In this document: positions 8,264 to 52,200 of the stretch, piece by piece
Layout of the letters: the number at the start of each line of letters is the position of its first letter
How positions within the stretch are numbered: position 1 is the first letter of the stretch
Assembly (NCBI RefSeq): GCF_964355755.1
Contig: NC_092674.1
Location: forward strand, 1,369,001 to 1,433,000
Length of the DNA: 64,000 nucleotides
Reading direction: 5' to 3'
Source of the DNA: Antedon mediterranea
Taxonomy: Eukaryota; Echinodermata; Crinoidea; Comatulida; Antedonidae
Translations under genes and position numbers: made by a program
The notes under the pieces: model-generated
The model's database searches: none
What the model was told of the DNA's origin: nothing
Seen by the model: the letters and a program-made list of their open reading frames with translations, nothing else

Positions 8264-11200
8264 CTATAGCTTTCTCTTTATGGCCTTTTGTTTCTCCTCG
8301 TCTATGATGTCTTGAACAAGTTTAGCAGCATCTTCGGCACAGCCCCATGACATGCTAACACCTCGTCCACCATGTCCATAATTATGAACAATCTACAAAA
8401 TACAAACATTATAATTCATTTACAACAAAACGTGAGGTGGCTTTCCAAAAAGCAAATTCGTTTGGTTTTATTAATTATTTCACAAAGTTAAGTAAAATAA
8501 AAAGGACCTATACTAGCAAACCTTGGTAAATTATTGTATTATGGAGACAATGATCTAAACGGGGCTTTACGGCTGAGTTTCCAAATGTGGTAAATAAATT
8601 TATAATATAAAGTATTTTTCAAGAAAACATTTCTAAACTAAAACCAATAACATATCAAAACTGGCAGTTTAAAAAAAGTACTGTTATATAAAAACTGACA
8701 TTACAGTGTTTCTATTTACTATGGGCCGGCTATAGTGAATAAAACCATAGAGGTAAAACAATCCATGATGAAACTTTGTACGTACCGGTACAATGTTACC
8801 ATCTATGTTGATGGTTTCTCGTTCAAGACGAACAGTTGGCCTGCCTGGTCGCAGTCCTACCCATTCATGATCTAATTCAGCGTGCTACGAAAAAATCATA
8901 TTTCTATTGTAAATGGGCGAATAAACTGCAACTTGCAGCCAACTGGGCTGAATTGTGCACTCCCCAGGGTCCCTTTGTGTCGAGAACTGCCACCAAATTT
9001 CACTAAAATGGTGACTCATTTGGTTACAAAATATTTTCATTGTCCTTTAATTGATTATGGGTGTGCCTTGAAGAAAGATATTCCTTGACTATGGGTCTTA
9101 ATTTCCAAGAAAAATAACTAAACAGAGATTACTAACAGATACACTTGGGAACATGTTTACAGCTCTTCTCCAAATTTCTTCCCTGTCCTCTTTATCGACT
9201 TTTAAATTCCAATTGTTCTTTTGATATTTTCCGCCAACTACAACTGTGTCTCTACTAGAAAGTGAATCAAACAAAAGTTAGAAAAACAAATTGTGTATAT
9301 TTATATATGAGAGGGAAGTCATGATTCGATCTTCATTTGATCATAAGCATGTTATTACTTATTTTAACGCCTTCCGCAGAATAGTCATCTGACTTTTCCA
9401 CCTCATCCGCTCTGCTTTTTCTCATGCTGTGAAGTTCTCCAGAGTTTCTGTCAGGTGCTATGTTCTTTATTTTCTGTAAGTTTTTATAAATGTTGTATGC
9501 ATAGTAGAAATTCTTCAATTATATCAATATTAGAATGTTGGGGATAACAGTGGCTTGTAGCCTGAATTGCACACAAGTGTTGATCAGCCTATCTAAGGAC
9601 GTCCATGCACACAAGTGTTGATCAGCCTATATAAAGACGTCCATGCACACAAGTGTTGATCAGCCTATCTAAGGACGTCCATGCACACAAGTGTTGATCA
9701 GCCTATCTAAAGACGTCCATGCACACAAGTGTTGATCAGCCTATCTAAGGACGTCCATGCACACAAGTGTTGATCAGCCTATCTAAGGACGTCCATGCAC
9801 ACAAGTGTTGATCAGCCTATCTAAAGACGTCCATGCACACAAGTGTTGATCAGCCTATCTAAGGACGTCCATGCACACAAGTGTTGATCAGCCTATCTAA
9901 GGACGTCCATGCACACAAGTGTTGATCAGCCTATCTAAGGACGTCCATGCACACAAGTGTTGATCAGCCTATCTAAAGACGTCCATGCACACAAGTGTTG
10001 ATCAGCCTATCTAAGGACGTCCATGCACACAAGTGTTGATCAGCCTATCTAAGGACGTCCATGCACACAAGTGTTGATCAGCCTATCTGAAGACGTCCAT
10101 GCACACAAGTGTTGATCAGCCTATCTAAAGACGTCCATGCACACAAGTGTTGATCAGCCTATCTAAGGACGTCCATGCACACAAGTGTTGATCAGCCTAT
10201 CTAAGGACGTCCATGCACATAAGTGTTGATCAGCCTATCTAAGGAAGTCCATGCACACAAGTGTTGATCAGCCTATCTAAGGACGTCCATGCACACAAGT
10301 GTTGATCACCCTATCTAAGGACGTCCATGTCAAAATTATTCTAATTCAGTTATTTTACTGATAGATTTAACCTGTTTATGCAATTATTTATCATATTTAT
10401 AAAATTTTTTTTATATATAATGTATTATTAATACTGTACACACCGTATTTATTTATAAACTCCGACATCAAAACAAACTAAAATAATGTAAAATCTAATA
10501 ATTTGTGTTGAGCAGCCAGTTAGCGGCGCTAATTCGTCTGTCCAATCAAAGAAATTGAAAACAAGGAACATTTAAGAATAACAACAATGTTTACCATGGT
10601 ATAATATGGAGAGATGAGCCATCATACTTAGGATCGATGTCAATTACAAAATGTTTCACCCACGGTGCCTTGACCTGAAAAAAAAAAAATTGATTGTCAT
10701 AAATTGAATAAAATAAAGTGTAGGCCTATGATTAGCAAATAGCAGTATTATAAATCTCAAACCCGTATAACCTGATCTCTGATTGGATAAACTGAATCTT
10801 AATGTGTAACTAACCCGTATAACCTGATCTCTGATTGGATAAACAGAATCTTAATTTGTAACTAACCCGTATAACCTGATCTCTGATTGGATAAACTGAA
10901 TCTTAATGTGTAACTAACCCGTATAACCTGATCTCTGATTGGATAAACAGAATCTTAATTTGTAACTAACCCGTAACCTGATCTCTGATTGGATAAATAG
11001 AATCTTAACTTGTAACTAACCCGTATAACCTGACCTCTGATTGGATAAACAGAATCTTAATTTGTAACTAACCCGTATAACCTGACCTCTGATTGGATAA
11101 ACAGAATCATCGTTCACTAGTTTGCCCGCTCCTAATCCAGAGCAATTCACTATGATATCATATTCACCAAATATCTAAAAAAAACATTTAAATAAATTAA

Positions 11201-14200
11201 TCTCTAAATTGTTATTCTCCATCTCCATAAAAGGGTCCTGTAAAAACAGAATTGTAAACTTCTTTATGCAGGATCCTTGCCATCAATTATATACTGTAAT
11301 TGTAAAGTTATAAACAATGACTAAATAAATGTGAATGAATGAATGAATTAGTCTATAGACACTATTTTCATTGACCACTCAAGCCCGTAGCCAGGATTTT
11401 ACAGGGGGTTCTTTTTTCCCAAAAAGGCCCCTCTTATGGGAATTACCTCCGGTGTAACCAGCTTATATGATTTAATATCAAACGATCAAAACACCAATGA
11501 TATTGGTCACCAGCCACAAGAGCACCCCTCTCCTAAGAGTTTCCTGCCCCAGGACCTTGGCCAAAAAAATTGGAAAAGATAGAGCACTACAGGGGCAGTC
11601 GCAGACTCGCAGGACTATTTTAAGAGAATTGCCCAAAGACTCCAGTGCTGTAGACAATGAGTATTTGAGTAAGAAAATTGTTAAATGATACCCCTACATG
11701 GTACTCTCGCACGTAAAATTCATAATAAACTGCACCTCTAGTTCAACGGAAATGTCACTCACTCTATAGTGCGCTAGCAAACAGAGGATCGTAGTATAAT
11801 GTTATTCGACCGTTAATAAAACATACGCGACTAACAATAGGCCTATAAGATAACATTTTTGTTTTCGTTCAATGCGAACGTCATATCACGGGGAAGTTCC
11901 CGATGAAGGTAGGCCTACTTCTGGTACGGTATTACATTCTAATAACTGTACTCAATTATAGTAAATTTATTAGCAATTAATAATTTTAAAAAGTTATGAA
12001 TGATGGGAAAATAACGCTATTGGTGTTGTTGGATTTGTCAGCAGCGTTTGATACTGTTGATCACCAAAGACTGATAACCCGTCTGAGAAATCGCATTGGC
12101 ATTAATGGTGTTGCTCTTAACTGGTTCCAGTCATATCTTACAGGAAGACGTCAGCTAGTCTGTATCAATGATGTATTCTCAGATGAAGCTTGCCTGGAAT
12201 ATGGTGTACCACAGGGGTCAGTAATTGGGCCTGGCCAGTTTTCCATTTATACGCTTCCCCTTGGTGACATTATTCGCAAACACAGTCTACATTTCCATTT
12301 CTATGCAGATGATACACAGATTTATGTGTCAGTAAATCCAGTGCAAAGGGATGTTGCTGCAGCAATCAGTAAGATGGAAGCCTGTATAGAAGATGTTCGC
12401 AATTGGATGACAACAAATTACCTAAAGTTGAATGATGGAAAGACAGAGTTTATTTTCGTCGGGTCTAAATGTAACATCTCCAAAATCAACATCACACATA
12501 TCAGAATCGGAAACTCTAACATCGCTCCCTCATCGGTGGTCCGGAATCTGGGAATCATGCTGGATAGTAATCTCACTATGGAAGCACAAATAACAACGGT
12601 ATCCAAAGCAGCATGCATATCGATTAGGAACCTTGGTCGTATTCGCGGTAATCTTAACAAGAAAACAGCTGAATTGATTGTACACTCATTTGTCACTTCT
12701 AAAATTGACATTGGTAATGCCTTGTTGCAAAATCTCAAATACAACGTTTGCAGCGCTTGCAAAATATGGCAGCTAGAATTGTAACTTATACAAAATCAAA
12801 CGCTCACATAACTCCTGTTCTGATGGATTTGCATTGGTTGCCTGTTCAACAACGTATTAAGTACAAACTTGCGTTGTTTGTATTTAAGATCCTAAATGAC
12901 AGTGCTCCTGCTTATTTATCTGACCTTGTGGATCGTTACGAATCATCCCGCAGAGACCTACGATCATTGTCACAAAACCTTCTTCAAGAGCGTAGAGCGA
13001 AAAATCAATGGGGTCTTTTTACGTTGCGGCCGCAAGTGTATGGAACAGCTTACCAGCAACAGTTAAATGCTCAACTAGTCTAAACAGTTTCAAGACCAAC
13101 CTAAAGACGTCGCTATTCGCTGATGTTCTCGCACGTTGTTAATGCACAAAGCGCCATGAACGCCACATGGGTGGAGGATACCGGCGCTATATAAGTTTTC
13201 ATTTATTATTATTATTATACAAAAAATATGAAGCTGCTGCTATAAATATATTGCGCAAAACGTTAAATTGTGTTATTTTCAATTAAATGCTAAATAAAGT
13301 CAGATTTTAAAACCACAATTTCAAAAATTCATTGTTTATGTATCCACTATAAACTTTAAAAAAGGGTTGTTTAAACCACACTCCAAAATAAAACAAAGAA
13401 AATTATGATATGACATTTGCAGAAGGAAGCAAACTTTGCTCTGCTACCGGTATAAGTACACGGTTCAAATTTCGGAACTTCCATAAATTAATACGGAAAT
13501 TCGGCCTAATATTTACGGACGTATGGAAGTGAAGATAAATAGGGTACTACACGCATCGGAAAAAAAACTATACGCACAATTATGATTTCGCCTAAAAATT
13601 GGCCTTAGATTATGGAAAATCTCCGGCAAAACGCAACAATTATGGACAAATCGATTATCAGCATTGGTAATATGCCGCCTAATATTTAAAAGGAATGAAT
13701 ATAAGCTATATTTTTGTTTTGTCCCAAAGTTCATATGTGAATGCTTGATCCATTAGAAGTAATCTGTGATAGTTTTTATTGCAATATAGGGTTGGTGAAA
13801 TCTGTCCACAATAGGTTACTTTTCTGTCCATAATAGCTTACTTTCTGTCCATAATAGGTTACTTTCTGTCCATAATAGGGACTAGAGGGCGCTGTTGTTT
13901 GTCCAAAATAGGTAACTTTCATAATTGGCTGTCCAAAATAGGTGACTTTTTTGTCCACAATAGGGGATTTTATTGCCAGTCCCTATTATGGACAGAAAGT
14001 AACCTATTATGGAGAGAAAGGTAACCTATTATGGACAGATTTCACCAACCCCGCTCTTTTATTGCTTGTATTATAACACAAGTTCATTTTCGATTTTCAG
14101 TAAATTACCAATGGTTTGTTTAAGGTCCACTGTAACCCTCACTATTCAATCAAAAATTATTATACTACCATTGTTGAAAAACGGATTGCGTGATGTCAAA

Positions 14201-17200
14201 ATGGATTGCGTGATGTCAAAATGGATTGCGTGATGTCAAAATGGATTGCGTGATGTCAAAATGGATTGCGTGATGTCAAAATGGATTGCGTGATGTCAAA
14301 ATGGATTGATTTAACAAAGATACGACCTTGTCTGGTATTTGTGCAGTGATGAAGCGGAGGATTGTTTTTGTAGCGTTCCATTTAAAATAAATTTTCTTGT
14401 GAAATATTTTGGTTGTGAAGGTCGCTAAATTTGTTGGCGCCAGACTTCTTTTACCAATTTTAACAATAAGCTAATAACAAAACATGGAACAATGATAAAA
14501 TGCCGTAAAACTCTGTAACTACTTTATGACTAAGTCTATCAAGGTCCGAGTTTGCTCAGCTACCGACGCGGTATAATAATTACCTGTTAATTCTGAAATT
14601 CGCCCTAATATGACGGACGTGTACGGAAATGAAGATAAAGTGGGTAAACTACACGGAAAAATAAAACTATACGCAAAACTATAATTTGGCCTTAAATTAT
14701 GGAAAAACGCAATAATGAACAAATTGACGACCCATAGGACGGGTTATTCCCGAACACAGTGTGTGTTGGCCTCCTTTCGTATACCTCTCATCAAGAGAGA
14801 GATACATCTCCCTGCTCTCGGTAAGAAAATGTGGAGTTATTTACATGTATTTGACTAATACAGTACAAATATAACAAAATATAGCAAAATAGTCAACAAA
14901 ATATTGATAATAAAATACAATCATTTTAAAGTTAATATTGTGCCTTAAAGGGGGTTATTTGATTGTCAATTGGCTGTGTTTACAAAGGGCTGCCACACAC
15001 GCTATGGCTATACCATATTATTTGGCTATACTAGAAGAGCAGCAACTGGAAAGATGACAGCACATGTTTTTCCACTGTATTTTAGTAACCAAAATGGTTG
15101 ACACTTTTCGGGGAAAAGAATCATCAAAGACAGAAGTGAAGAATCTCTTATTACATATTATTTAGGCCTACTATTAAATTTTTTTTTTTATTAACTATAT
15201 TTTTTTACATAAAAATTGATTTGTTTAATAAAAGAAACCATTTGGTTTAGCGACGTTAATTGCTGGTTTGAGGAACAGGATCGTGCAGGCGATCCGTAAA
15301 AATGATGGACTGATCGCTTTCGGAAATTCGCTTTTATTGTGTAAAAAGAGTGATGGTCACAGAGAGGAGACCTACGCAAGAAACATCAATATTAAGCAAG
15401 GAGTTCTTAATTAGAACTCCCTATGCAGTTAGGGTTAAAAACGTCATTTTTTAACCAAACCTGGAAAAAATTATTTACAAAGGATTTTTATCATCAAACT
15501 TAACATATAAGTCCCAGGGGTCACCAAAAAAAGTTCTAGTGATTTTCTCTATGGGGGAAGGAGTTATGACCTTTTATATAAAGGTCAAATCTATTTTTAG
15601 TAACGAGTTAGTACTTCATTAACCACACAGTGTAGATGCTTAATTTTAGTCTCAAATTGTTCGCAATGTACAATTTCCTATTTGCAATAATGGAATATTT
15701 TTCTAAAAAATTACCAGCAATGCTATTTCTGACCTTTGACCTTTCTTGACCGGAAGTTTCATAGCTACATAACTATTTGACCTAGAGAGTGGGTTTTGGT
15801 CTTAATTTGTTTATAATGTACAACTTTATATTTGCAGTAATGACACATTTTTCTATAAAGCAAGTAGAAATACCATTTATTGACCGTTGAACCCAATTAA
15901 CCAATATTATTCAATTATTATTAATAATATAGTTCAAGTATTAACACCGCCACCACATGGCTGTACATAGGCTAAACTTTTTGACCAATCAGGAAGCGCC
16001 ATCTAGCAGGATACATTTCAAATGTTTGTTAGAAAGAGTGCAGCAACAGCATATCAAATCGAAAAACAGTGGGCAGGTGTATGGAGTGACATAGCAATTG
16101 AACAGACCCTTATGAGACATTCAAAATCACAGGGCGGTTTGTCTATGGGCCGGATGAGGGGTACTTCAACTACAAGCGGAGCAACATACCTGCCTTGGGT
16201 ACTGACTTTGAATCATGTTTCTGAGATCCATCACCTACTAGAAGACAAAGGAAATACTCCAAACCTGCCAAACAAAGAATGCTCACAAAGTGCAATGAAA
16301 ATTGACACATCTACCTTTGGTCAAGTACTCAATTGGTTCAATGAACGTTCTCCATTTGAAGATCCACAGAATAGTAAAATCATCGTTTCACTGTCGACAG
16401 GTTTATCCACTGAACGAAGTAAATTGTGACAATTGCTACAATATAGGTCTCACCATACAGAAACAAGTAGATGCTAAACCTCTGAATCACAGAATGTCTA
16501 CACGAAACATTAAACCATTATCATGTCTACAAAAATGTGTGAAAGTTGAAGAAAAGAATGCATATGTCAACAATACAACCCTATTTACAAGACTTGTCCT
16601 TCTCAGTGAACGTGATAACTTTTCACTACGTGAAACATTAAAATATGAACTGACACCTCTACCAACATCCCTGTATGATACCTCTGAATTTTTACAGAAG
16701 CCTGACAAGGCGTCACTTGGGAACTATCTCAAAACCATATCTGAGTCAGCCAGTGTTCAAACATCAACAATCCAACCCAGTGTGTACGTTATAGATGGAG
16801 GATGGTTGATACATCAGATTCCATGGACTCCAAATTAAAAATTCCTAGATATAATTAAATCCTACAGTAATTATATCAAAAAGAATTTCCAGGCAGGAAC
16901 ACTGTAGAAGTCATTTTTTACACTTACACACATGCATCAATAAAAGACCATGAACACAAACGCAGAACAAAGATTAAATGTGCAAATTATAAGGTGTCAA
17001 CAAACCAAAGATGTATTGTCCAAAAGACACAGTTTCTTTCAAATTTGAAAAATAAGCAAGAACTAATTAACTTATTAGGATCGACTTTAGCCGAGGATGG
17101 AGTTAATGTTTACCATGCTTATTCAGCAGATGCTGACATGCTCATAGTTGAACGTGCAATACAATCAACCGAACTAAGTTCCAATATAGTGGTTGTAGCA

Positions 17201-20200
17201 GAGGACGCGGACATTTTGGTTATGCTGGTTCACTGGAATAAGGGAAATAACATCTATCTTAAAACAAAATTAACTATGTATAATGTGTTAGAAATACAAG
17301 AGAAACTACCTAAGACTGTTCTTAAGTATATAATATTAATTCATGCATTCAGTGGATGTGATAGTACATCTTCTGTGTTTGGCAAGGGAAAAGTTAAACT
17401 AGCATCAAAGCTTGAAAAAATCAGTAATCTAGAGAAAATTGATGTATTTTATTCAGACACCCCCACAAATGAGGGGATACACAAAGCAGGCATCTCATTG
17501 ATGCAACTAATGTATGGTGCTGATGAAGACATGACAACATTAAGAGTACGTATGTACTCCAAAATGGTAGCGAGGGGTAGCTTAACAATTGAGCGTCACT
17601 CTCCAACTGAAGGTGCCATCCTACAGCACTCATTGAGGGTATGGTTTCAAGTACTGGACTGGAGGAAATTAGCACATCATGAAATTGATTCCACCAAATA
17701 CGGTTCAATGGTGAACTAACACCAGTCCCAACATTAGACGAATATGCTCCTATGTCACTCTTAAAGTTTATCTGTTGTAACTGTAAATCTGGAAATGGTA
17801 ATGAGATGTGTACAACGAATAGATGTAATTGTAGAAAGAGTAAGCTTAAATGCTTAAGTGCATGTGGGTCATGTATGGGCAAATGTGAAAATGGCTCATG
17901 TAACTTTTCATTCATTTTTCTGATGAAGACACCTAGGCTTTACTGACACAGTAATAATCTGGCTAGTCTCAACAACAAAAAAATCATCAGCTTTCGTCTA
18001 AGTGACGGTGTATGTTTTAAAGAAAGTTGATTATTTGGTAAAAATAATATCATTGTACGTCTATAATTACATGTAGATTTTAAACTATTACCAATAATAA
18101 GGAATCTTTAGTAAGTAAACGACTGGGAGCAATATCCAAGTTTCGGTGTTATTACATGATGAATAATCCCCTCGCCCACCCTCAAAAACATTTAAAATGT
18201 GATTTTTTTCTCAAGTTTGGTGCTCTTTTCACATATAAGGTTAAAAGTTAATAAAACCATACTTCTTGTCACAATTGTACATAATGCTCCATTATACCAA
18301 ATAGGAACATACATGTTCTTAACAATTTGAGACCAATATGAAGATTATGCGACCAGTAGTTATTGAGATATAATAAGCTGAGGTCAAAGGTCAAAACGTC
18401 AGAAATATCATTTCTGGTCACTTTTGGACAAAATGTTTCATTATGAAGAACAGGAATATGTATCTTCTAAACAATTTAAGACCAAAACCAAGTCTCCATG
18501 ATTAATGGTTACCAAGATACAAGCATGTCAAGTTGTAAGCGGCCATTTTGAAAATGGCGCCAAAAAAAAGTTTCCCATGGGCCAAATCCTTAGAACTTTT
18601 TTTTGGTGGTATTTTAGATTCATATAAAGGTTTTCCCATAAAAATCGCTTTGTAAATAATGTTTTCTAGGTTTGGTGCTGATTTTCCCTAACTTAAAGTG
18701 GCGAACGTCCCCTACGAAAAGCAACACGTGCGCAGTGTAACTAAAATGAACTACCTTTTTTTGCGGGGCTAATACTAAAGTCAGAGACGCCAAATGATGT
18801 AAAATCACGAATTTTCTTTGCCTGGCTGACCAATGCAGGGAATGGTCCGGCATTAACCACCATGTGCCTGGCTGACCAATGCAGGGAATGGTTCAGCATT
18901 GACCACCATGTGCCTGGCTGACCAATGCAGGCAATGGTCCAGCATTGACATTGAGACTATTCAGAAATATAGTATAGGAATATCCCTGGTATAACGTCAT
19001 TTCATACTAACCTCTGACATGGAATTGAGTCTTCTTTTCACAAGATTGCCACCATTTTCTTTAAATCTAAAAGATGTTGATCAATTTTTCAATTCAACCA
19101 GAAACGATTAAATCAGATTTTTTTTAATGCATAGAATTTTCTTAAAGTCGCAAAATGTCAACATTCATTTTGGAAACAGTTGTTTGGGCTGGTACAAGAT
19201 TTGGGAGAGTTTTGGGTCTGCAGCAATAATGTGCAACTTTGTTCATTCTCGTGCTCCCTGACACATACTATGAACAAGTTATTTTGTAAAATGTAGGCAT
19301 AACTCACTTATTCAACAACCATGGTAAGTATGTTCTACCATGCACTTGAAATGATGTCAAAAGCCATCCATTGCTAAAAAGAAAAAATTAAAAAATTATT
19401 GAAACACTCACACTCACAGTGCAGTTGATTTTACTAAGTACGAAACTTTAATAAATGGTACAATAGTATAGGCCTACAGGCCAATTTAAACAGACGAGCG
19501 ATAAACATACAATGTTATTCCTTATGATGACCATTTACACACAACATTAACGCGTAGCGGACGGGTGGTACAGATTTACTTGGACAAGCTACGCGGTTTT
19601 CCGATTACGTTACCGCTCACCTGTATAAATTGGCCTGGCATTTACACAATAGTTTATTTTGTTAGATATTTTTTTCACCTGTAGTTTGGAAAAAATGCAG
19701 TCATCTCTTTCGCATCAAGCTTTCTGCAGCCATAAAACTTTTCAGAACAGTCGTCCAACTACAAAGAGAGCACACTGTAAAATAATTCCACTTTTTAGAA
19801 TTAAATTCAAATTATTGTGTTGTGGAGAAATTGCATATTCTCACCTGTTCTTGCTTATTGCTGAGATAATAACCCGATAATATTGTCACACTGGCCGCTA
19901 CTGACTCTTTACTCCGTGTAATTGATTCCAGATATTTTCCAGTCCGTAAAATCCAGTCACTTAAAGAAAAGAGTTCTTCGGTTATTCGTGGAAAATAAAA
20001 ACTTGTTGTGATCAAAAGAAGTCAATTATGTTTATGTACATTTTAACTGTACAGAGAGATTTAGATAAAAGTAAAAATAAGAAAAAGTATTTTTTTTTTC
20101 TTTAAATGATTATACTCTTTAAGTGATAGCCCTGCCTATGTACGTTTATATAATTTCAGGCTCGAAAATGTCTTGTTTATTTAAAGATGTATTGTCCACC

Positions 20201-20996
20201 AAAAATCATGAAAAATAAAGATTTATAAATCAGATTTTTTAATAGCCTAATTTGCAGTTTTAATGAAGCTTTCACTTCGATAGAAATGCAATTTTTTTCA
20301 TTAAGGAAAAAAAAGTTTTAAAAAAAATTTATTTAACCAAAAACCCATAGTCAATTTGACTATTGTATGCGTTAGACAGTTTTTTTCAGGTAAATTCAAG
20401 ATTCAAGATTCAAGAAATTTTATTTGTCCATAAAAATGGAAATTCACTTTGCTTGGTAGATTAAAACAACAATATTGCAACAATTTAAAAACGTGCAGTA
20501 TAATAACAGATTAAAAATACAAGATAAAAAGTTAAAAATACTGTTAAAAATGTAAAACTATTAGAAATTGCATTAACGTCTTACATTAGAATTAAAAATA
20601 TGAATGCTATTTACAACGAAGGATTTTTTAGTTCTACAAAGATTTGCTCTTGGAAGTTGTAGCCTAATGCCTGATCTATTAATAAATAATTTCCAATTTC
20701 TGGTCAAAGTGAACAATTATGAACAAATTAAAATATTATTTTTTTCAGGGGGACAATTATATCTTGAATCAGCATGAATACCTCATCATTTGATTATCTT
20801 GGTGAGATCCACCACCTTCCAGCGTAGGTTCCCACAATCCTGCAGCACCATCACTTGTAGTATCTGGTGACAACTTGTCAGCAATGATAGTGACATGTGT
20901 ATTGGGGTTCTGTTGTTGGATGACAATGGCGGTAGATAGCCCTATAATACCGCAGCCAACCACACATACTTTGCCATACTCTTTGTTTATACTCAT
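8264..20996 (-). CDS. DDO: D-aspartate / D-amino-acid oxidase, complete ten-exon gene
   Basis: FAD-dependent oxidase that deaminates D-amino acids to 2-oxo acids, with H2O2 and ammonia; family members are peroxisomal. Exons (minus): 20996-20782, 20001-19845, 19758-19679, 19373-19308, 19066-19012, 11174-11073, 10674-10595, 9254-9137, 8884-8786 and 8392-8264. All junctions have AG/GT signals and phases agree, giving about 366 aa (mammalian enzymes are about 340-350). Exon 1 holds the Rossmann FAD motif [12 protein letters not shown]. Exon 4 has GWLLTSF and YLPWL. Exon 6 has [12 protein letters not shown] and YPIRGQVIR. Exons 7-8 give APWVKHF, HIIP and VVVGGKYQ. Exon 9 has [13 protein letters not shown] with the substrate-binding Arg. 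Exon 10 has [10 protein letters not shown]. The C-terminus KRKL is a weak PTS1-like tail. I cannot settle D-Asp versus neutral D-amino-acid specificity. Exon 8 could use either of two donors four codons apart in phase; GTTAGT fits the family length. Intron 5 is 7.8 kb and full of transposons. The tail of exon 6 is tandemly duplicated downstream. Confidence 0.93.
9569..10329. repeat. 38-bp minisatellite, about 20 copies, in an oxidase intron
   Basis: The unit starts GCACACAAGTGTTGATCAGC and ends GGACGTCCAT. Nearly every copy is identical, with AAGG/AAAG alternation at one site. It lies inside the intron between oxidase exons 7 and 8 and contains no exon sequence. Confidence 0.95.
10761..11120 (-). 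repeat. 52-bp tandem array made of an exon end plus its splice donor
   Basis: Seven units start at 10761, 10813, 10865, 10917, 10969, 11019 and 11071. The last is the real 3' end of oxidase exon 6 (YPIRGQVIR followed by GTTAGT). The other six lie downstream in the intron. Each carries the same coding tail and donor; one has a 2-bp deletion. The two most exon-proximal units keep the Gly codon of RGQ, while the more distal ones read Asp there. The unit length is not a multiple of three and contains TAA, so use of a distal donor would disrupt the protein. Confidence 0.93.
11990..13218 (+). mobile_element. L2/CR1-like LINE fragment, frameshifted, antisense in the oxidase intron
   Basis: A 262-codon frame (11996-12784) holds RT motif A ([16 protein letters not shown]), motif B-like [13 protein letters not shown] and the YADDTQIY box. 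Near 12735 the frame shifts; the C-terminal part resumes at 12748-13083 with [33 protein letters not shown] and APAYLSDL. A conserved 3' UTR (CGCCATGAACGCC, GGCGCTATATAAG) ends in an (ATT)n tail at 13202-13218. The 5' end is truncated near 11990. LVDRYESSR and the microsatellite tail rather than poly(A) fit the CR1/L2 group. One clear frameshift and the truncation make it inactive. Confidence 0.9.
13440..13740. repeat. Dispersed repeat family X, copy 1
   Basis: Shares an ordered series of words with 14515-14740 and 21236-21680: GGAAATTCGGCCTAATAT, GACGT, GAAGATAAA(T/G)(A/T)GGGTA, ACTATACGCA and TTATGGA(C)AAAT. Copies differ by many substitutions. Nothing coding is seen. Confidence 0.6.
13789..14051. 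mobile_element. 263-bp foldback element (MITE-like) with nested inverted repeats
   Basis: The ends are inverted copies: GGGTTGGTGAAATCTGTCCA at the left and its complement at the right. Behind each end, the words ACAGAAAGT(A)ACCTATTATGG repeat two to four times in opposite orientation on the two sides, so almost the whole element can fold on itself. No ORF. It lies in oxidase intron 5. Confidence 0.85.
14183..14302. repeat. 20-bp tandem repeat, six copies
   Basis: The unit GGATTGCGTGATGTCAAAAT repeats exactly, followed by a partial seventh copy. Intronic in the oxidase gene. Confidence 0.95.
14515..14760. repeat. Dispersed repeat family X, copy 2
   Basis: Same word order as 13440-13740, then GACCCATAGGACGGG and CACAGTGTGTG, which are shared with the third copy at 21.5 kb. 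Confidence 0.6.
15428..18692 (+). mobile_element. DNA transposon with long terminal inverted repeats carrying a PIN/CXC-type ORF
   Basis: Sequence at about 15428-15760 recurs in inverted orientation at about 18300-18692. Both arms hold, in order: GTTAGGG, ACCAAACCT, ATTATTTACAAAG followed within two bases by GATTTTTAT, CACCAAAAAAAGTTCTA, GACCTTTGACC and TCTCAAATTGTT. These arms enclose the broken ORF at 16022-17946, so the two belong to one element of about 3.3 kb. Exact outer ends and target duplication are uncertain; TTAA follows the right end but is not next to the left end. It sits in the 7.8-kb oxidase intron, antisense to the gene. Confidence 0.72.
16022..17946 (+). pseudogene. Decayed transposon protein: acidic-motif (PIN/XPG-like?) domain and C-terminal CXC zinc cluster
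   Basis: One protein is readable across several frames: 16022-16410, a shift to 16395-16838, a stop and shift near 16838-16920, 16990-17719, and a shift into 17705-17946. Middle motifs are [43 protein letters not shown] and [17 protein letters not shown]. The spaced Asp pairs recall PIN/XPG-fold nucleases (inference). The end is a dense Cys cluster, [20 protein letters not shown] then CRK and [13 protein letters not shown], resembling the CXC (tesmin/TSO1-like) zinc domain. At least three frameshifts or stops make it inactive. Multi-copy proteins of this build occur in many invertebrates. An Academ-type relation (XPG nuclease transposons) is possible but unproven. Confidence 0.75.
18819..18955. 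repeat. 46-bp tandem repeat, three copies
   Basis: The unit begins TGCCTGGCTGACCAATGCAG and ends ACCACCATG; the third copy is incomplete. It lies just upstream (plus sense) of oxidase exon 5 and holds no exon sequence. Confidence 0.9.
19478..19636. mobile_element. 159-bp foldback element (MITE-like)
   Basis: AGGCCAATTTAAACAGACGA at the left matches the complement of the right end (AGGCCAATTTATACAGGTGA) with three differences, followed by GCG(A/G)TAA in both arms. The centre is GC-rich. It lies in the oxidase intron between exons 3 and 4. Confidence 0.75.
20393..20720 (-). pseudogene. CR1-like LINE 3' end in oxidase intron 1
   Basis: On the minus strand, [21 protein letters not shown] followed by a stop matches the end of CR1-group LINE proteins. 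A 3' UTR follows and a 7-bp microsatellite tail (ATTCAAG)n at 20396-20416, typical of CR1 rather than poly(A) elements. Confidence 0.6.
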
Positions 20997-21235
20997 ATTT
21001 AAATTCTAGTGAAACTGAAAATGCATTTTTTGTTTGTTGACATAAAAATCAGAAAAAAACCTCAAATATATATAATAATTTAACATGATATTCCGTCCCA
21101 ATGAAATAAATAAACATCGAAATATTGACTCCTGATATATAACATTGTACATATTTTGTTAAAATATTTTGAATTTTGTTTTTTGTAAATAAATAAATGA
21201 ATGAATTAAACGCTGTTATTTCAACACTGTCAATT

Positions 21236-21680
21236 TCTCACTGTTATATTCTACATAAGATGAAGATAAATAGGGTACTACGAAAATACTTAAATGATGG
21301 GGCATCTCCGGTAAATGCAATAATAAAGCTTGGTTCCCACTAGAACGTAACGCAAGGACGTAAACGCAACGCAAGCGTTTTAACCAATGACAAGCAAAGT
21401 TATAGACAGTTAGCAATCACAAGCGAATAAGCCATCGCTTGTGATTGGTCAATTCACTTGCGTTGCGTTACGTCCTTGCGTTGCGTCGCTAGTGGGAACC
21501 ACGCTTTATGGACAAATCAACGACCCATATGACGGGGTTTACCACGAACACAGTGTGTAGTGGCATTTCGTACCTTCTCGTGACGCACACAAGCAATCCA
21601 AACAGTCAGAAATTCATTCTGAGCATGTTCAGAAATATATCCACTCACACAAATACGCTGACAGCCGGCGGTAAATTGTG
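21236..21680. repeat. Dispersed repeat family X, copy 3, split by a miniature element
   Basis: The left part (GATGAAGATAAATAGGGTAC...CATCTCCGGTAAA) and right part (TTATGGACAAATC, GACCCATATGACGGG, CACAGTGTGT) are contiguous in copies 1 and 2. Here they are separated by the MITE-2 copy at 21327-21508, so the MITE jumped into the older repeat. Confidence 0.65.
21327..21508. mobile_element. MITE-2 copy (complete foldback)
   Basis: Ends AGCTTGGTTCCCACTAG and its complement. Inner arms hold CGTAACGCAAGGACGT and ACGCAACGCAAGCG, with CTTGTGATTGGTCAA in the right half. Flanked by TAA/TTA-like trinucleotides. Confidence 0.85.
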
Positions 21681-34836: not shown

Positions 34837-34910
34837 ATGAAATATATTATATAATACATCGTTTTTTAAAAATAGTAAAAAATGTTAAAATAGATCAAAA
34901 GAACAGTCGC

Positions 34911-35636: not shown

Positions 35637-35790
35637 GCCTCAAACTTTATGTGACAAAAAAAATGTGATGTGCCCATATTTGGACATGATGATGGCATAT
35701 CACTACCATATTTGGGCATATCACTACCATATTTGGGCACTTCACACTTTTTTTTGTCAAACTAGTTTGATAGTGTGAACAGAGCTTTAG
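35637..35790 (+). mobile_element. MITE-1 copy 7
   Basis: CTCAAACTTTATGTGACAAA to TTTGATAGTGTGAACAGAGC. The first bases of the left end are missing, and the central TTTGGGCATATCACTACCA is duplicated. Confidence 0.85.
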
Positions 35791-36214
35791 ATTGCCAATA
35801 TTTCAAAATATTAAAACCATTGTGGTGTATTCACATTTACAAGTAGCCAGTATGGGCTGTCCTGTGTTTGTATCTGTGCAACACTGTACAAATTTATTAT
35901 TAAAGAGACAATTATATGATATAATTCTTTTTTATTATCACTGTGTAATTATATTGATGAAAATACAAACATGTTACATTCTCATTAAATTAATTTAACA
36001 TTAGGTAATGTACACATAAATATACCAAACTATGTCTACATTAACACCAACAAATATCTATTTGTTTATACTGTTAAGAACTAGGTTTGTACAAATGCAT
36101 GGATAAAAGAAAATTGTCTTTTTTAATTACCTATATACACATTCCAAACTAAAACAACTTTCCGTCTCTTTTGCGATAATTTGTGCATTTATAATTTCAT
36201 ATAATTATGTTGAA

Positions 36215-39200: not shown

Positions 39201-42063
39201 TTACAACATACTTACATCTTCAATACATGCTCCTGAAAAACCTATTCTTTTTGCTACATCTATTGCTACTTCTTTTGATAATCCTAGGAATAATACAAGT
39301 GTGCAAAGTGTTAAATTCTACCCTACATTTCCATTGGACTCTAATTTCAAATTATTTACTAATCAGCAGAATGCAGAGAGGGATGAAAACATAGCTTAAT
39401 ATCTGATTGAATGTCAGAATGAATATTAGTAAATACTGTAGATGCAACAGCCTACCTTCATTGATATCAATTCCTTGTTTAACAATAGAATCTGGACTTT
39501 CTTGAGCTATTTCTTCAATATTAACTCCTCCTTCTGAACTTGCAATAATTACGGGACCCTACAATAGCAAATAGATATACTGTAATGTTAACTTTTATTA
39601 CAGCTAGAAGATGAAATGTAGATTTACACCAACTATATTATAAAATAGAAGATCTTGAAAAACATTTAAAAGTAGATGAGAATAATGTTCTGAAAGATTA
39701 TGAATGTAGTCTATAAACAATCAAACATAGGAACTCAACATTTACAACTCAAACCTACCATATATGATCTATTTAATGTTAGGTGTGAATGCATACTTAC
39801 CATATATGATCTATCTAATGTTAGGTGTGAATGCATACTTACCATATATGATCTATCTAATGTTAGGTGTGAATGCATACTTACCATATATGATCTATTT
39901 AATGTTAGGTGTGAATGCATACTTACCATATATGATCTATTTAATGTTAGGTGTGAATGCATACTTACCATATATGATCTATTTAATGTTAGGTGTGAAT
40001 GCATACTTACCATATATGATCTATCTAATGTTAGGTGTGAATGCATACTTACCATATATGATCTATTTAATGTTAGGTGTGAATGCATACTTACCATATA
40101 TGACCTATCTAATGTTAGGTGTGAATGCATACTTACCATATATGACCTATTTAATGTTAGGTGTGAATGCATACTTACCATATATGATCTATCTAATGTT
40201 AGGTGTGAATGCATACTTACCATATATGATCTATCTAATGTTAGGTGTGAATGCATACTTACCATATATGATCTATCTAATGTTAGGTGTGAATGCATAC
40301 TTACCATATATGATCTATCTAATGTTATTGCAAAGTAATATTCACGTCTTGAATACATTCGTTCACACACTAAAACCTGAAATAACAAATAAACTATTAT
40401 ATATTAGCTATCACTGTAGATGAATTATTTACAGAAATTATACAGAGATTTACTACTTACTACTACTTTTAATAACTTACAGAATTGCATGGCCTGCCAA
40501 TAGCTCCGGTTTGCTTCGTTATTAACTTGTTTCCAATCATCTGAGATGCTAATTCACGTACTTCTGTTGGGCTACACAAAGATTATTTAATAATAACATC
40601 TTCAAAATATTTTTTAGAGTTGGAAAATATAAATCACTATTGGATTTAATTTTGTAATTCCAGAAATACCAATTAACTCATTGTTGTAGTATTGATTAAA
40701 AAAATGTTGTATAGGTATTATGAACAAAAATACATACGAGAAAGCTAATTTAACACCTCCTTTAAGACCACTCTCAAAGTAACCTTTGCCCCTTCCACCA
40801 GCCAGTACTTGTGCTTTGACCACTACATCATTCCCTCCTGTACAAAATAAAAAAATACACATAAAGTTGCAGATCTTAAATACTGTAGATATATTTATTT
40901 ATTTTCATAACTACGCCGCTTCTAGAGCTCTGTCTACTACACTATCAAACTTTATGTGATAAAAAATGTCATGTCATATCACTACCATGTAAACATACCA
41001 CTATCATGTAAACATATCACTATCATACTTGGGCACATCATTTTTTTTTGTAACACTAGTTTGATAGTGTAAACAGAGCTTTACAATATAATTTTGACAC
41101 CAAACATCGTAAACCTTCTTACCAAGATCTGTTGCTGCTTGAAATGCCTCATCTGGTGTCATAGCAACCTTTGACCCAGGGATTGAGACACCTGCTTCTT
41201 GCAGTAGGTTGAAACTTAGGTACTCATGAAGCGATAAATGTCTACGCTGCTGTTGTCCACACAGAAACCCATTACCAATGGCTGCAGCGACCTAGGAAAG
41301 ACAAAGTAAAATGTACAAACGATATAAATTCAATGTCAACTGAATGATTACTCAACAAGAATATGTTTGGTCTATCATCCCTGGTCTATTGCTAATTTTT
41401 TTTTCTAATATTAACATTAATTTTAAAGAAATTTATTTAATTAATAATAATATTAATAAATCCAAAGGCAAATTACTGACAAAATTCAGTGGCTGGATCT
41501 CAATGGAGATACAAAAAAAAGCTAGGCCTAAATCAAAACGATAAAGTAAACAGCCAGAAAAGTTAGCAGAGCTTTCGGGCAACACTGGCCTACTAGTACT
41601 ATAGACTAGGCCTAGCCCTTTATCAGAAATTAATAAAAATAAATAATAAATTAATGTGATAAAAATATAAAATAGATAGTAGGCCTATATTGTTTGTCAT
41701 CACTATTTCAATAAATAGAACTTGAGCCTACCTAATACTGGCTGGTTGTTGCGTGTCCAAATGTGCACTTTCTTAACTTATGTCATAATGACAGGCTAGG
41801 CCTAGGCCTCCCTACGCACTTTCTACTTCTCGCGACCGGAGCGAATCCCGTTGTCAGCCAGCTACGATTTGCGGTCATATTAATTTAGGTTAGTATGCCT
41901 AGGCCTAGACACTATTTTCACTAAATTTTGTAAAAATAAAATGCAAGAATATTTCCAAAATAATCCTATAATCAGTAAATCATAATCTTACCTTTGTATG
42001 ATGCTGTAATCCCTGTTTTGCAGCAATCAATCTGCTCCCGAGTCGACATATTGAAGAAGCCAT
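36215..42063 (-). CDS. SUCLA2: Succinyl-CoA ligase (ADP-forming) beta subunit, mitochondrial; complete, 13 exons
   Basis: Catalyses succinyl-CoA + ADP + Pi to succinate + CoA + ATP in the mitochondrial TCA cycle, paired with SUCLG1. Exons (minus): 42063-41992, 41291-41123, 40837-40738, 40571-40481, 40376-40305, 39558-39456, 39283-39216, 38881-38785, 38426-38265, 37906-37764, 37406-37286, 36937-36849 and 36289-36215. All have AG/GT ends and matching phases, giving 453 aa (the human protein is about 463). Exon 1 is a basic, Ser/Arg-rich mitochondrial presequence. Exon 2 has [20 protein letters not shown]. Exons 3-5 form the ATP-grasp part ([30 protein letters not shown]). Exon 8 has [15 protein letters not shown]. 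Exon 10 has [15 protein letters not shown] and [10 protein letters not shown]; exon 11 has [16 protein letters not shown]. The exon 5 tail and donor are amplified into a 14-copy array. Introns hold four or more MITE-1 copies. The gene starts 1.2 kb from the divergent PPP2R3 gene. Confidence 0.97.
36390..36545. repeat. LINE 3'-UTR fragment related to 32955-33110
   Basis: TAAGCCTCAAAGAG, GGTTCCACCA, ATAGACAGA, GAGTTACAGA and GATACATA occur in the same order as in the 3' region of the CR1-like LINE at 32.9 kb. It lies in the last SUCLA2 intron. Confidence 0.55.
36681..36812 (+). mobile_element. MITE-1 copy 8
   Basis: CTCTCTACACTATCAAACTT to GATAGTGTAAACAGAGCTT. SUCLA2 intron 12. Confidence 0.85.
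37434..37527 (-). mobile_element. MITE-1 copy 9 (internal fragment)
   Basis: Contains GTGCCCAAATATGGTAGTG twice, GACATCATCATGTCC and GGGCACATCACAT, without the terminal arms. SUCLA2 intron 10. Confidence 0.75.
38513..38650 (-). mobile_element. MITE-1 copy 10 (full length)
   Basis: TTAAACTCTGTCTACACTATC to AGTTTGATAGTGTAGACAGC. SUCLA2 intron 8. Confidence 0.88.
38941..39160 (-). mobile_element. MITE-1 copy 11 with a roughly 60-bp insertion
   Basis: The arms AGCTTTGTCTACACCATCAA and TTTGATAGTGTAGACAAAGC are intact. The middle is interrupted at about 39008-39080 by AT-rich sequence with ATTCAATTCAAG, flanked on both sides by AATAATATG, as if a short retro-insert landed here. Confidence 0.8.
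39757..40340 (-). repeat. 42-bp array: SUCLA2 exon 5 end plus 5' splice donor, 14 copies
   Basis: The exon-proximal unit is the true exon 5 end (LDRSYM then GTAAGT at 40304). Thirteen more copies follow downstream in the intron, each with the same exon tail. Twelve are followed by GTAAGT and the most distal by GTAGGT. Units are exactly 42 nt and open in the SUCLA2 frame (V-S-M-H-S-H-L-T-L-(D/N)-R-S-Y-M). Each distal donor could therefore be used without breaking the frame, adding 14 residues per unit up to 182. The array is open on both strands, which makes long spurious ORFs. Confidence 0.95.
40926..41084 (+). mobile_element. MITE-1 copy 12
   Basis: AGCTCTGTCTACTACACTATC to TTTGATAGTGTAAACAGAGC. 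The centre has a duplicated CATGTAAACATA. SUCLA2 intron 2. Confidence 0.87.
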
Positions 42064-46200: not shown

Positions 46201-49200
46201 CCTCAGCCAGCACCATATCACCTTGTATTTTCATCTCGCAACATTAATGAGAGTTTTTTCATCGATCAACGACCGGTTCGTATTGTTCACCATTTTCATA
46301 AGACTTGTCCGTTTCAGAAGCAAGACTCGTCTGGCAAGCCGTGTGACGCCGTTCATTTCGGATTCTGTTCTGATGTTTTTACTTCCAAAGATTTAATTCT
46401 GGATGTTAATCAAAATTGTATCATTAGTAAATCTAATAACAATATCAAGGTAGGCATTCATCAAATTTATGATCATGACACAGATGTAGCTCGAGAAATT
46501 TAGGGGTGGGTGGCACAATTCAAAACATAAAAAGATAACCTTTCAGCAAGAATTTGAATAGGTCCCCAGCCACACAGTAGTTACATCATTGCATGAGTTT
46601 AAATTAGCTTAGTTTTTTCTAACTTATTTAAATGCAATTGATTTTGTAACTGTAGACATCCATTTCTGAAATAAAAGTAAAATGAATGAATGAATTAACT
46701 AATTATTAAAGCCCAGTGTACTTTTTGCTTAGCAAAATTTATATAAGATAAGATAAGATAAATCTTTATTGTCATGAACACAACCAGGCGAACATGAAAT
46801 TGGTTTTCCTTGATGCTTAAAAACACATACAATATATAAAACATTAAAAATATCAATACAATACATTAAAACTATATACAGTAGTAAACAAACTATCTTT
46901 GAAATGTTGAGTTGGAAACATGAATAGAGTTGTGGACAAAGAACAGCCTATAGAAAAACAAGAAAAATAGTTCAATAATAACGTCATAAATAACAGTTAA
47001 CACAAAGAAAATTTTGTATTATTTATAGTAACATGGTCCGAAATATCAACATGTAAATGGCAATATATTTACTTAAGTTATATACAAGTGCTTTTATTAT
47101 AAAAGTTTTTCAAAGCCAACTACTTCATTAATAATATCATCACATGTAGTGATGTGATGAGTAATGTAATTGTCATGTATGTAGTAAGCCTTTACAAAAG
47201 ACAAGTTGTAACTCATTAAATATTTATCAAAGAATTTCTCGTGTGAATAGGAATGTTGCTCTCAACATCACAAAGTATGATAGTTAAGTTGTGATACTAC
47301 ATTTTAGAAATTTTTTGTTTTTCTTATTTATTTTTAAACATTTTGATTATTATATTAATAAAAAAAATTATCTTTTGTGTATGGTATTTGTAGTAAATAC
47401 TATTATTCGGGAAAATCCTGCAATTGTAAGTAATTCTTAATAATAAACAGAATGGTTATAATAATAATGTCCTTGTATGGAGGATAAAAACATGGTACTG
47501 TAATATTAGTGACCAGGCACATGGACTAATGTTTTCTAAGTTGAAACTTAAAAAAGATGGTATAATTAGTTCCATGTAATGACTTATTAAGTGATTACAA
47601 CAAGGTAAGCCACCAGTAGTGACTTATGTGTACATGTGGGATATGAAGGTCAACAAACTTTACAAGGGTTTTATTCCCAGTGTGATCTTATCTGGTGCAA
47701 TAAGTACCATCCTACCAAACTTAAGAAAGTTAGTGGACAATTAAATGTTCTATCCAAATTCATTAATCTGTAATTGTATTTTTTGCTAGTAGTAAAACCT
47801 TAAATTGATAGTAGGAACCAACCGACCAAATTTGAATATGGATATATCTATAAAAAATGTGATGTGCCCAAATATGGTAGTGATATACCCAAATATGGTA
47901 GTGATATGACATCATGTTCATATATGGGCACATCACATTTTTTTGTTATAATAAAGTTTGATAGTATAGACAGAGCTTAAGATTTAAGTTTCTAGACACC
48001 CTTTAGGAACAATGGGAAGAGATTTGGTTGATACTGTATGTACAAATAAGGAGTGAAATTGCCTGTGCTCCGTCTACAGATCCATACAGCTTAAATCATT
48101 TCCTGACAGACACTGTGTGTAACTCTGAGACACACATGGCACCTATTCACTAAATCTCAATGTTGTGATTTTAAACATTTTAAAAAACCTCAAATATATT
48201 TTTTTTCTGGGGTTTGAATGGGCCAAGAATTAATTTGTTTACCTATCTCTCATACTGTATGTGTACTGAGTAAATTGTATTGTATTGAAACAGTAATGTT
48301 TATTACATGAAAAAAAAGGGTAGCAATCAGATTAAATGCATTTCTAATTAATAATTCTAAAATATAATTGAAAACTTCTTATACAACATATCCTGCAAAT
48401 AAACTATAATTAGTCCGTGCGAGTTTAAAGTTTAAAGCCAAAAATTCTGTAATATTTATAATTATTAGATATGAATATTCTCATTCATCCAGTTAGTACT
48501 AAGTCCAGTGGATTACATTAATATCAAAACAAAAATAAATGTTATGTCATCTATTTTTTTTTTAGCTTTTTGAAGATCGTAAAGCAGCTGAGAGTAACCG
48601 GCAACCAGTAAACGTTCCACAGTTTTACTTTCCGTACGGCCGACCGGTTGACGCGGGGGTAAATGAAAAGGTGTTGGAAAAAGTGTCAGAGGTTTTTAGA
48701 TCATTACAAGTTATTAGAAAACATGAAATGGATGAGTTAACATTGGTATGTTGGTAGGCCTACATTTTCACTTTTATTATAGTTATGCAATTATGGAATT
48801 GTGGCTTGGTGGTTATGATGTTTGGCTACCAATCCAATGGTCCTGGGGTCAAGTCCTGTCATGTGTCAGGATTTTTTTCTTTCTAATGACAAGAAACTCC
48901 ACACCCAAAGACTTGTAATAAGACTTTGTTTATGTAGAGCATCTTGTGTATATGTTTGTATATGACCCAAGATTACCACCGTTAAGAAGGATAGTGAATA
49001 AATTTGCTTATGGTTATCCTTGCCTAAATATATTTTTTTAAAGTCAAATTCTAAAGTTTGAGACAGATTTTTTGAATGCTACGACAAAACTGATTTATTT
49101 GTAAGGATACATGCATTCAGTTTGCTTTATTGATTTAAAATATTTTTTGTTTTATCGTGTGAATAAAAAATACAAATACAGAAATCATCAGAAGTCATTG

Positions 49201-52200
49201 ACCTCATATTTATTACTACAGTATCATTCATTACAGGCATGTGGCTGCCCTAAATACTGGAGGATGGCCCTCTATCACGCAGCTGGAGGAAAGGATGATG
49301 TACCCCTTACACAAGAAATGTTTGTAACAATGTGGCAGAGGTTTGTAATACATTCTTTAATGTACAGTATATTCATTTTTTCAACCAATTGCAGCACCTT
49401 TCGATTGCATAAAGTTAAGCTCTGTCTATATTATCAAACTAGTTTGACAAAATAGTGTGATGTGCCCAAATATAGTAGTGATATGACATCACCACATCCA
49501 TATATGGGCACATCACATTTTTTGTTACATAAAGTTTGATAGTATAGACAGAGCTTTAGAAACTATTTTATTATTTATTTATTAATTATCAATCAACATC
49601 ATCTTTCTGAATCATCTTTTATTGAGTCTGAACTTAACATTGAAATTTGTTTTTATATTTCTTTTTCCCATTTGTGCATTTAAAAGTTGACCTCTAATTG
49701 ACCTTATCAGTTTCTGAGCCATCTTTTATATTTATTGCATCTGAACTTAACATTATTTTTTGTAATTTCTCTTACAGAGTGATTTCTGAATGCCATGACG
49801 ATAGTTCAAGATTATTTCGTCTTTTAGTCAAACCCAAGTGCAATTACATATCAGCTGAAGACTGGTACCCAATGATTCAGGTAAATATTTAAGAATACCC
49901 CTTGATACCGGTCTCAATTACATATCAGCTGAGGACTGGTACCCAATGATTCAGGTAAATATTTAAGAATACCCCTTGATACCGGTCTCAATTACATATC
50001 AGCTGAGGACTGGTACCCAATGATTCAGGTAAATATTTAAGAATACCCCTTGATACCGGTCTCAATTACATATCAGCTGAGGACTGGTACCCAATGATTC
50101 AGGTAAAGAACACCCCTTGATACCGGTCTCAATTACATATCAGCTGATGACTGGTACCCAATGATTCAGGTAAAGAATACCCCTTGATACCGGTCTCAAT
50201 TACATATCAGCTGAGGACTGGTACCCAATGATTCAGGTAAATATTTAAGAATACCCCTTGATACCGGTCTCAATTACATATCAGCTGAGGACTGGTACCC
50301 AATGATTCAGGTAAATATTTAAGAAAACCCCTTGATACCGGTCTCAATTACATATCAGCTGAGGACTGGTACCCAATGATTCAGGTAAAGAACACCCCTT
50401 GATACTGGTCTCAATTCAATCACCCCATCGGTAAACAACTCCTTCCAGTTTGTTTGAACCGACCTTTGACCAAAGTTGTTTTAGTGGTCTGTAAAGGAGA
50501 CTTCATCATTTTTGTCACAGAAGTCTGAATGTGGTTTTAGTTTAAAAGTCATTTAACGTCACTTAAGTGACCAATGTAATGTCATTACCATTGTCATCAT
50601 CATTTATAATCATCATAATATTTATCATCTTTTATTCTGTTCGTTATCATCAATTACCATTCCATTTTTTGTGAATTTTAAAGAATCAAAAGTACATAAG
50701 TGTAGAGTAATAAGTTACTACCGTATATCCTCTGGTATAATCCCACGCCTCTAGAACATGAATTAAATTACTACCGTATATCCTCTGGTATAATCCCACG
50801 CCTCTAGAACATGAATTAAATTACTACCGTATATCCTCTGGTATAATCCCACGCCTCTAGAACATGAATTAAATTACTACCGTATATCCTCTGGTATAAT
50901 CCCACGCCTCTAGAACATGAAGTATACCAGGGAAAGCCTGGTTCAATAAAAAAATTATTGGTAAAGCATTTCTTGTAAAAACTCATATGAACTATCTAGA
51001 GAGTGGCCTACATCCAGACCAAAAGTGAATACTGGGACTATACCCACCCAGGGATATGCCTGTTTTTGAAATCAGACATAAAGTAGGGGGTGGGATTATA
51101 CCTGAGGATATACGGTATTAGCCAATCATTTGCTTTGTTTTGCAGGATGTGGTAAATTCTCATCCTGGATTGTCATTCCTGCAGGATGCTCCTGAATTCC
51201 ATTCTCGTTATATCCACACGGTAAGTCGAACATTTCTTCCCGTCCTTCCAGATTTTCTAGGATTTGTTTTTGTGTGTCTCACTCTCAATCCTTTATTCAA
51301 TTTTTATTTTAATCTCAATGCGATTACGATACAAATTAAAATATAAAAAACAACAAAATAAGCAATTATAATGTTCACAAATGTTTATTCAGTTTTGAAA
51401 GAATATAAAACATAATTCTTTGGAAGATAAACATTTTTACAGGTAAAAAATGTGATAAAATACTAAAATGCTTGCTGCCCTCTATCGCAACTAATAAATC
51501 ATTTGGAGGAAATAAATCAGAACATCTACTTGGCAGACATTGTCAAGTTTCGTTTATTTACTTGAAAAACGTAAGAAAATTAGATTATATAAATAAATTG
51601 TTAAATACAAAAACTCATCCAGCCAATGGATTGTTTAATAATTTATAGTTTAGAGTTATTTTAAAAGTTTTTTTATAGAGATATCTTGGTCTTTTAGAGT
51701 AAAGGTACAAAATAATTCATAATTAAGTGTTATCAAGCAACAAGACCGTTTTTGATATTTAAAAAAACATTATTAGTGCTTGGTGTTAAAATATGTAGGT
51801 ACCAGGTGTACATTACTATTATAAAATCATTTTTTATAAATTTACTTTTTTTTGATTAATTAAAATAAATATTAAGAAGAATTAAGTGGCAAATTGATTG
51901 GTTAGTACGTAGTAATACATATGATTTACATATTGCATTTTATCAATGTTACTTGGAAAAAATTCATCATTTAAAGTGTTTAAACTTTGACCTTTCCACC
52001 ATTGTTACCGCCCTCATGGACATCCGTATCCTCTGCTTGTTTGTCATCTTCAGGATGAATGGTCTCTGTTGGCAAATCTGTTGAAAGCTCAATGATCACT
52101 TCAACCACATCTTCTTCAGCTATCTCTTCCTCTGCTATCTCTTCCTCTGTTTCTTCCACTACCTCCTCGATGACCTCTTCAACGACTTCTTCAACAATTT

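Follow-up and report, generated by a model that had tools for sequence, protein, structure and literature searches.

Minisatellites spanning splice junctions in genes of the crinoid Antedon mediterranea

Tandem repeats that multiply a splice site have a described precedent in human IFI6, in which two downstream repeat units act as donors and give rise to three mRNA species (PMC4526556). Tandem genomic duplication has also been linked to intron gain through the AGGT model, in which an AGGT within an exon comes to serve as donor as well as acceptor (PMC3443670). Two further papers describe reporter constructs with competing intron-proximal and intron-distal splice sites (PMC1877881) and minisatellites within introns of earthworm metallothionein genes (PMC12783039). 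Here we describe minisatellites whose unit carries a splice site across an exon edge, in three genes of a 64 kb window (the whole stretch of DNA analysed, G000:C5:1369001-1433000) and elsewhere in the same 354 Mb genome, which comprises 18 contigs, 11 of them chromosome-sized. The feature is real and recurrent, and for the most part it is explained: the arrays probably result from ordinary minisatellite birth in an array-dense genome, with the intron-side copies tolerated since the exon-proximal site stays in use. This explanation draws on the anatomy of the arrays, their local and unrelated units, their presence at both junction types, a frequency close to that of blind placement, the ungapped match to homologues, the damage that decoy sites would cause to the reading frame and an array common to two paralogues.

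Donor-spanning arrays in three window genes

Three genes in the window, encoding an oxidase of the D-aspartate/D-amino-acid type, SUCLA2 and a PPP2R3-type PP2A B'' subunit, have minisatellites in which every array is built on a unit that takes in both the end of an exon and the adjoining 5' splice site, as seen from Tandem Repeats Finder (TRF) calls and from reading of the sequence. In all three arrays the first unit comprises the true end of the coding exon and the opening bases of the intron; the further units lie on the intron side. The initial annotation had reported these three exon-end arrays, and they are real, located where it placed them, with 7, 14 and 8 copies, respectively. Exon borders in the window were read by eye from the sequence, and exon identity was assigned by alignment to solved homologue structures.

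On the minus strand, oxidase exon 6 (11073-11174) ends in ...RGQVIR, its 3' end being the first array unit, and the exon-proximal donor GTTAGT reads from 11072. The minisatellite (10760-11108, minus strand) was called by TRF with a 52-bp unit in 6.8 copies; among the seven found on counting, six carry CGG/GTTAGT (the slash marks the splice site) and the most distal one is altered. Exon 7 (minus strand) starts with VKAPW... at 10660-10674, next to the acceptor CAG at 10675-10677, and the exon 6-7 peptide aligns with D-aspartate oxidase 6rkf with no gap across the junction (E = 4.6e-14). The SUCLA2 exon (40305-40376, minus strand) ends in ...LDRSYM and is followed by the donor GTAAGT, read from 40304. 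Its minisatellite (39756-40327, minus strand) has a 42-bp unit, in 13.6 copies according to TRF and 14 on counting, with ATG/GTAAGT in 13 of the 14 and an altered most distal copy; the unit amounts to 14 open codons and the frame stays open throughout the array. The next SUCLA2 exon occupies 39456-39558 on the same strand (lower end read by eye), and the two-exon peptide matches the beta subunit of ADP-forming succinate-CoA ligase (9swj and 6g4q) over 59 of 59 residues, ungapped, with E of about 5e-23. Finally, the PP2A B'' exon (49778-49880, plus strand) ends in ...YPMIQ, with the donor GTAAAT read from 49881. TRF and counting give a minisatellite at 49841-50416 (plus strand) with a 74/67-bp unit in 8 copies, all of which carry CAG/GTAAA, the next base being G, not T, in three of the eight. 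The next exon starts with DVVNSHPGL... at 51146-51205 (plus strand), placed by open frame and alignment; the two-exon peptide is ungapped when compared to PP2A B'' beta 4mew (E = 1.6e-20) and to 4i5l. Because the peptides joined at the exon-proximal donor align ungapped to their homologues, we infer that this donor is the working one in the three window genes.

The units of the three arrays have no sequence in common, as judged by eye. Across the whole genome, the SUCLA2 and PP2A B'' units had no match beyond their own arrays at the sensitivity of that search, and the sole other match of the oxidase unit was the array of its paralogue. With units that are unrelated and local, the proposal that one architecture had arisen by separate origins stands. 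Mobile or introner-like elements inserting at junctions would account for the recurrent hits on unrelated genes, but the units contain each gene's own exon end, and the genome search, made with the three window units, found no dispersed related copies of them; we regard such insertion as next to inconceivable.

The oxidase paralogue is inverted, lies 8 kb left of the window and carries, in its exon 6, the same array at the same donor, in 4 copies (G000:C5:1361045-1361251). Its piece (L001:2781-7193, corresponding to G000:C5:1358781-1363193) aligns with window 8237-21068 in blocks that are 78-96% identical. The two oxidase arrays have some variants of the unit in common, among them AGAGATCAGG and TCTATTTATCC, and for this reason the array most likely predates the gene duplication. 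The oxidase array is not private to one gene, since the paralogue carries it too.

Other features of the window were noted on the way. Further large minisatellites lie at 9568-10329 (38 bp x 20) and 55028-55725 (59 bp x 12), with no exon noticed at either. By eye, open frames resemble an adhesion G protein-coupled receptor (GPCR) and other proteins, and those at 2261-4093, 11990-13139 and 33383-34846 resemble pieces of retrotransposon reverse transcriptase. An element that contains a 21-bp repeat (CATATCACTACCATATTTGGG or the complement of it) is dispersed, with occurrences at window 35694-35745, 37436-37492, 47859-47907 and 59830-60148, as well as in several of the pieces sampled below.

Junction arrays elsewhere and their frequency

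Altogether, junction-spanning arrays were seen in nine genes and one paralogue, with units of 29-80 bp and 2 to 22 copies, two of the nine being at acceptors. Their frequency was estimated in an exon sample consisting of kinesin, myosin and kinase family matches, selected by protein family and blind to repeats; the selection criteria, compactness and exon-like partial matches, were applied prior to repeat inspection. For kinesin 121 out of 134 matches were used, for myosin 27 out of 80 and for kinase 59 out of 140, which makes 207 exon matches and 414 edges. They lie on 102 pieces with a combined length of 226,312 bases, about 179 kb of which is collapsed non-exon sequence. Two edges were assigned to each match, though some edges are gene ends and some matches span small introns; certain arrays extend past the fetched piece and many loci are paralogues. 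Arrays were called by TRF and, for density counts, defined by a score of at least 100 and a period of at least 15. By this definition the window holds 20 arrays, which occupy 8.4% of it, and the sample holds 30.

Four arrays in the sample span a junction, which corresponds to 0.97% of the 414 exon edges (95% interval 0.26-2.5%). Two are at donors, one in a kinesin (L029, 65-bp unit, 2 copies) and one at a PAK kinase exon (L089, 80-bp unit, at least 6 copies, continuing past the fetched piece). The other two are at acceptors of kinesins: L006 has a 70-bp unit and 22 acceptors, the last of which is the true one (a TRF row at 1836-1930 was merged into this large array), and L013 has a 50-bp unit in 11 copies. 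Arrays that come near an edge without crossing it (e.g. L002, L028, L030, L034 and L048) were left out of the count. A strict rule was also applied, in which an array must lie within 80 bases of a family match; nine of the 30 arrays qualify. The L029 array lies 93 bases from its match and misses this rule because its exon continues beyond the matched domain; it was recognised by eye, and omitting it reduces the count to 3.

If repeats start anywhere outside exons, 2.85 straddling arrays are expected, and the 4 observed do not differ significantly from this number (P = 0.32). No junction hotspot is therefore shown, and the data leave room for a few-fold excess. Arrays that, viewed in one window, resemble a special system thus occur at roughly the rate expected if repeats are born without regard to exon borders. 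The initial annotation had suggested, as one option, a break or slippage hotspot at exon-intron junctions. In such a case junctions, and donors above all, would start tandem duplications, for instance through breaks or slippage when transcribed. The three donor arrays within one 64 kb window and the point estimate of 4 against 2.85 lean in this direction; nonetheless, the excess was not significant in any of eight threshold settings (P 0.19-0.43) and the strict rule gave 3 against 2.85, which speaks against a hotspot and allows a moderate excess. Among the 414 edges, the junction arrays were divided equally between donors and acceptors, two of each, so that neither donor specificity nor the claim that arrays are restricted to donors is borne out; likewise, the claim that arrays grow only downstream of exons does not hold with two of the four sample arrays at acceptors. 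Besides, the exon share of the unit ranges, by eye, from 3/29 (eIF3L, see below) and 5/50 (L013) to about 29/37 (DHX8), which fits random placement. Altogether we consider a hotspot unlikely.

The matches listed from a search for a tandem GGTAAGT pattern, all on contig C1, comprise 6 arrays, two of which are at exon donors; the two cases count for a hotspot, though the search favours donor-like motifs by design. One is DHX8 (L043), where a 37-bp array listed at C1:17776366-17777061 sits at the donor of exon PIFTIPGRTFPV...HLTEPP (E = 9.8e-20 with 6hys). The other is eIF3L (L044), where a 29-bp array, listed at C1:18595971-18596432, sits at the donor of exon FLKLYTTMPISKLAAFLNL (E = 1.1e-23 with 6zvj when taken with the preceding exon); its unit includes 3 exon bases. 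The DHX8, PAK and eIF3L exons match their homologues as far as the exon-proximal donor. Among the remaining arrays, that of L042 begins about 47 bases within the intron, the exon being judged by eye, and those of L045-L047 showed no exon by eye, one candidate exon in L046 having no match among solved structures. The recurrence in this genome that had been proposed from the window is thus supported by further donor cases in DHX8, eIF3L, PAK and one kinesin. An array of the IFI6 type, with a unit that starts in the exon and contains the 5' splice site, is present in the three window genes, in these four genes and in the oxidase paralogue. A pattern of tandem donor motifs gave 1,412 matches, and the same motif reversed gave 2,505; in a second search the corresponding numbers were 389 and 1,610. 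At face value these counts speak against a donor excess, but the pattern counts each copy and the rows listed stem from few large arrays, so that no conclusion was drawn.

In favour of an assembly error, some arrays are nearly uniform, such as that of L013, where the acceptor stretch is repeated 11 times without any difference. Against it, most arrays contain scattered variants among their copies, the oxidase array exists in two paralogues that have diverged and differ in copy number, and nine separate genes are affected. Errors of assembly are a very improbable source of the arrays.

Some observations on repeats and myosin exons were made in the course of these searches. On contig C1, a 68-bp unit with AGGTAAGT runs for more than 50 successive copies from G000:C1:19363306 to at least 19367257. 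In G000:C3:19614624-25122537, a near-identical myosin head exon (positions 342-408) occurs at 19 places and another (about 564-629) at 12, which is a large local expansion of myosin genes. At L057:417-722, one myosin head exon is present in two neighbouring versions with a distance of about 170 bp between them. These were considered as an array and rejected as such; they are a spaced exon pair, possibly of mutually exclusive exons.

Splice-site choice and the state of the decoys

The ordinary birth of minisatellites, which we favour, would proceed as follows. A short stretch would duplicate in tandem at a place unrelated to exon borders, and the array would enlarge by slippage or unequal exchange, the general routes of array growth. 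Where the first unit happened to straddle a junction, nearly every unit would receive a copy of the donor or of the acceptor, and the array would survive with its exon-proximal copy intact and used and its decoy copies within the intron. Exon definition, the pairing of both sites that flank a short exon, may select the exon-proximal site, and it would cover donors and acceptors by one rule, because the exon between the true sites is short and the decoys would lengthen it. In classical work on duplicated donors the intron-proximal copy is reported to be favoured; such a preference here would damage these genes. Use of the nearest decoy would cause a frameshift or a stop in eight of the nine genes (a frameshift in the oxidase, a stop in PP2A B''), the exception being SUCLA2, where it would add 14 residues in frame. 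In contrast, two window arrays that look coding from their open frames have periods divisible by three, of 36 or 18 bp at 24816-24999 and of 66 bp at 52586-52789 (seen by eye, not a full count).

Splice sites were scored with a matrix derived from the kinesin and myosin sample (82 donors and 109 acceptors); in donor arrays, only exact copies of the motif were scored. Such decoy donors reach the score of the real site in the oxidase, SUCLA2, PAK, DHX8 and L029. The same is true of the decoy acceptors of L013, 10 in number, whereas in PP2A B'' three of the seven decoy donors are weaker than the real site. The real acceptor of L006 (9.2) exceeds 20 decoys (6.2-6.3), but is lower than the first decoy (9.7). 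Altered decoy donors amount to 1/6 in the oxidase, 1/13 in SUCLA2, 3/7 in PP2A B'' and 0/1 in L029, and, in the fetched part, to 0/5 in PAK and 2/5 in DHX8. Variable columns number 7/54 in the 9-base donor and 70/303 elsewhere (Fisher P = 0.11), the variation outside the donor being inflated because units were compared ungapped and one oxidase copy was missed; copies were recounted separately. In PAK, the exon copy reads CCA (Pro, as in PAK1), and TCA stands at that place in all five fetched decoys. The exon copy keeps the PAK1 Pro codon while the decoys share TCA, so that the former looks constrained and the latter do not.

These data bear on the earlier suggestion that selection maintains the surplus donors as spares that buffer splicing. 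Isoforms, such as in-frame 14-codon insertions in SUCLA2, would be another conceivable benefit. Many decoy donors do retain the score of the real site, the donor columns are somewhat less variable than the rest, the 42-nt SUCLA2 unit is open across the array, and downstream units are in use in human IFI6, giving three mRNA species (PMC4526556). The lower donor variation is, however, not significant, decoy donors do vary, recently copied arrays retain motifs without any selection, the solved SUCLA2 alignment has no room for an insert, and the frame damage in eight of nine genes is at odds with spare donors; we find selection quite improbable as the cause.

Several results weigh against ordinary minisatellite birth with tolerated decoys. 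With four events, the Poisson interval, calculated by hand, still admits an excess as high as about 3.6-fold. The sample count is a lower bound, as 20 of the 30 arrays are over 93 bases away from any matched exon, and not all of these were checked for unmatched exons. The window has three junction arrays, all at donors, against 0.6-1.4 expected (P 0.02-0.17), a range that uses a guessed number of 40-100 junctions and the 282-bp period assigned by TRF to the PP2A B'' array. The window donors (about 30 assumed) also exceed those of the sample, at 2/207 (Fisher P = 0.015). This excess in the window is the strongest result against our reading; we gave it little weight because the window was singled out for these arrays. 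As to the decoys, they are frequently as strong as the real site and splicing models would not call them harmless; nor need they be silent, because the downstream units of human IFI6 serve as donors (PMC4526556). Use of the exon-proximal site, on which the tolerance of decoys depends, is itself deduced from aligned sequence.

Comparison with known systems

Choice between near-identical splice sites is usually studied on few engineered duplicates; here many natural ones are at hand, a series of 2 to 22 copies whose scores are frequently equal, both at donors and at acceptors of conserved genes. We tentatively suggest, as a possibility less likely than not, that genome-wide about 1 in 100 exon edges lies in minisatellites that multiply splice sites, donors and acceptors alike, and that the spliceosome routinely picks the exon-proximal site from as many as 22 similar copies, the gene of its own helicase DHX8 being no exception. 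If true, exon definition would be put to a natural test across this whole genome, to be set against the intron-proximal preference known from duplicated-site constructs.

In the open PubMed Central literature, with subscription papers mostly outside the scope, we found no report of genome-wide splice-junction minisatellites, of the acceptor form or of their frequency across a genome. With a dedicated system not shown, what is new here is a matter of degree: nine genes, both junction types and about 1 in 100 edges in the sample. The AGGT model is alike in that a stretch with splice-site-like sequence is duplicated in tandem, and differs in that a new intron arises there, whereas the present arrays multiply a junction that was already in place, and no additional intron was seen. 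The window units contain the intron's own first bases, and in the three window genes no new intron in an ancestral exon was found, nor any coding gain or loss across the existing junction when compared to homologues. The reporter constructs resemble the present arrays in that splice sites compete on one exon; they are engineered and assayed in human cells, whereas the arrays here are natural and have 2 to 22 copies.

For the donor form, human IFI6 sets a precedent: there as here, a donor is multiplied by tandem repetition where an exon ends. The IFI6 repeat unit is reportedly 12 bp long. IFI6 is one gene, whereas the arrays described here affect nine genes and a paralogue, have units of 29-80 bp and are found at acceptors in two cases.

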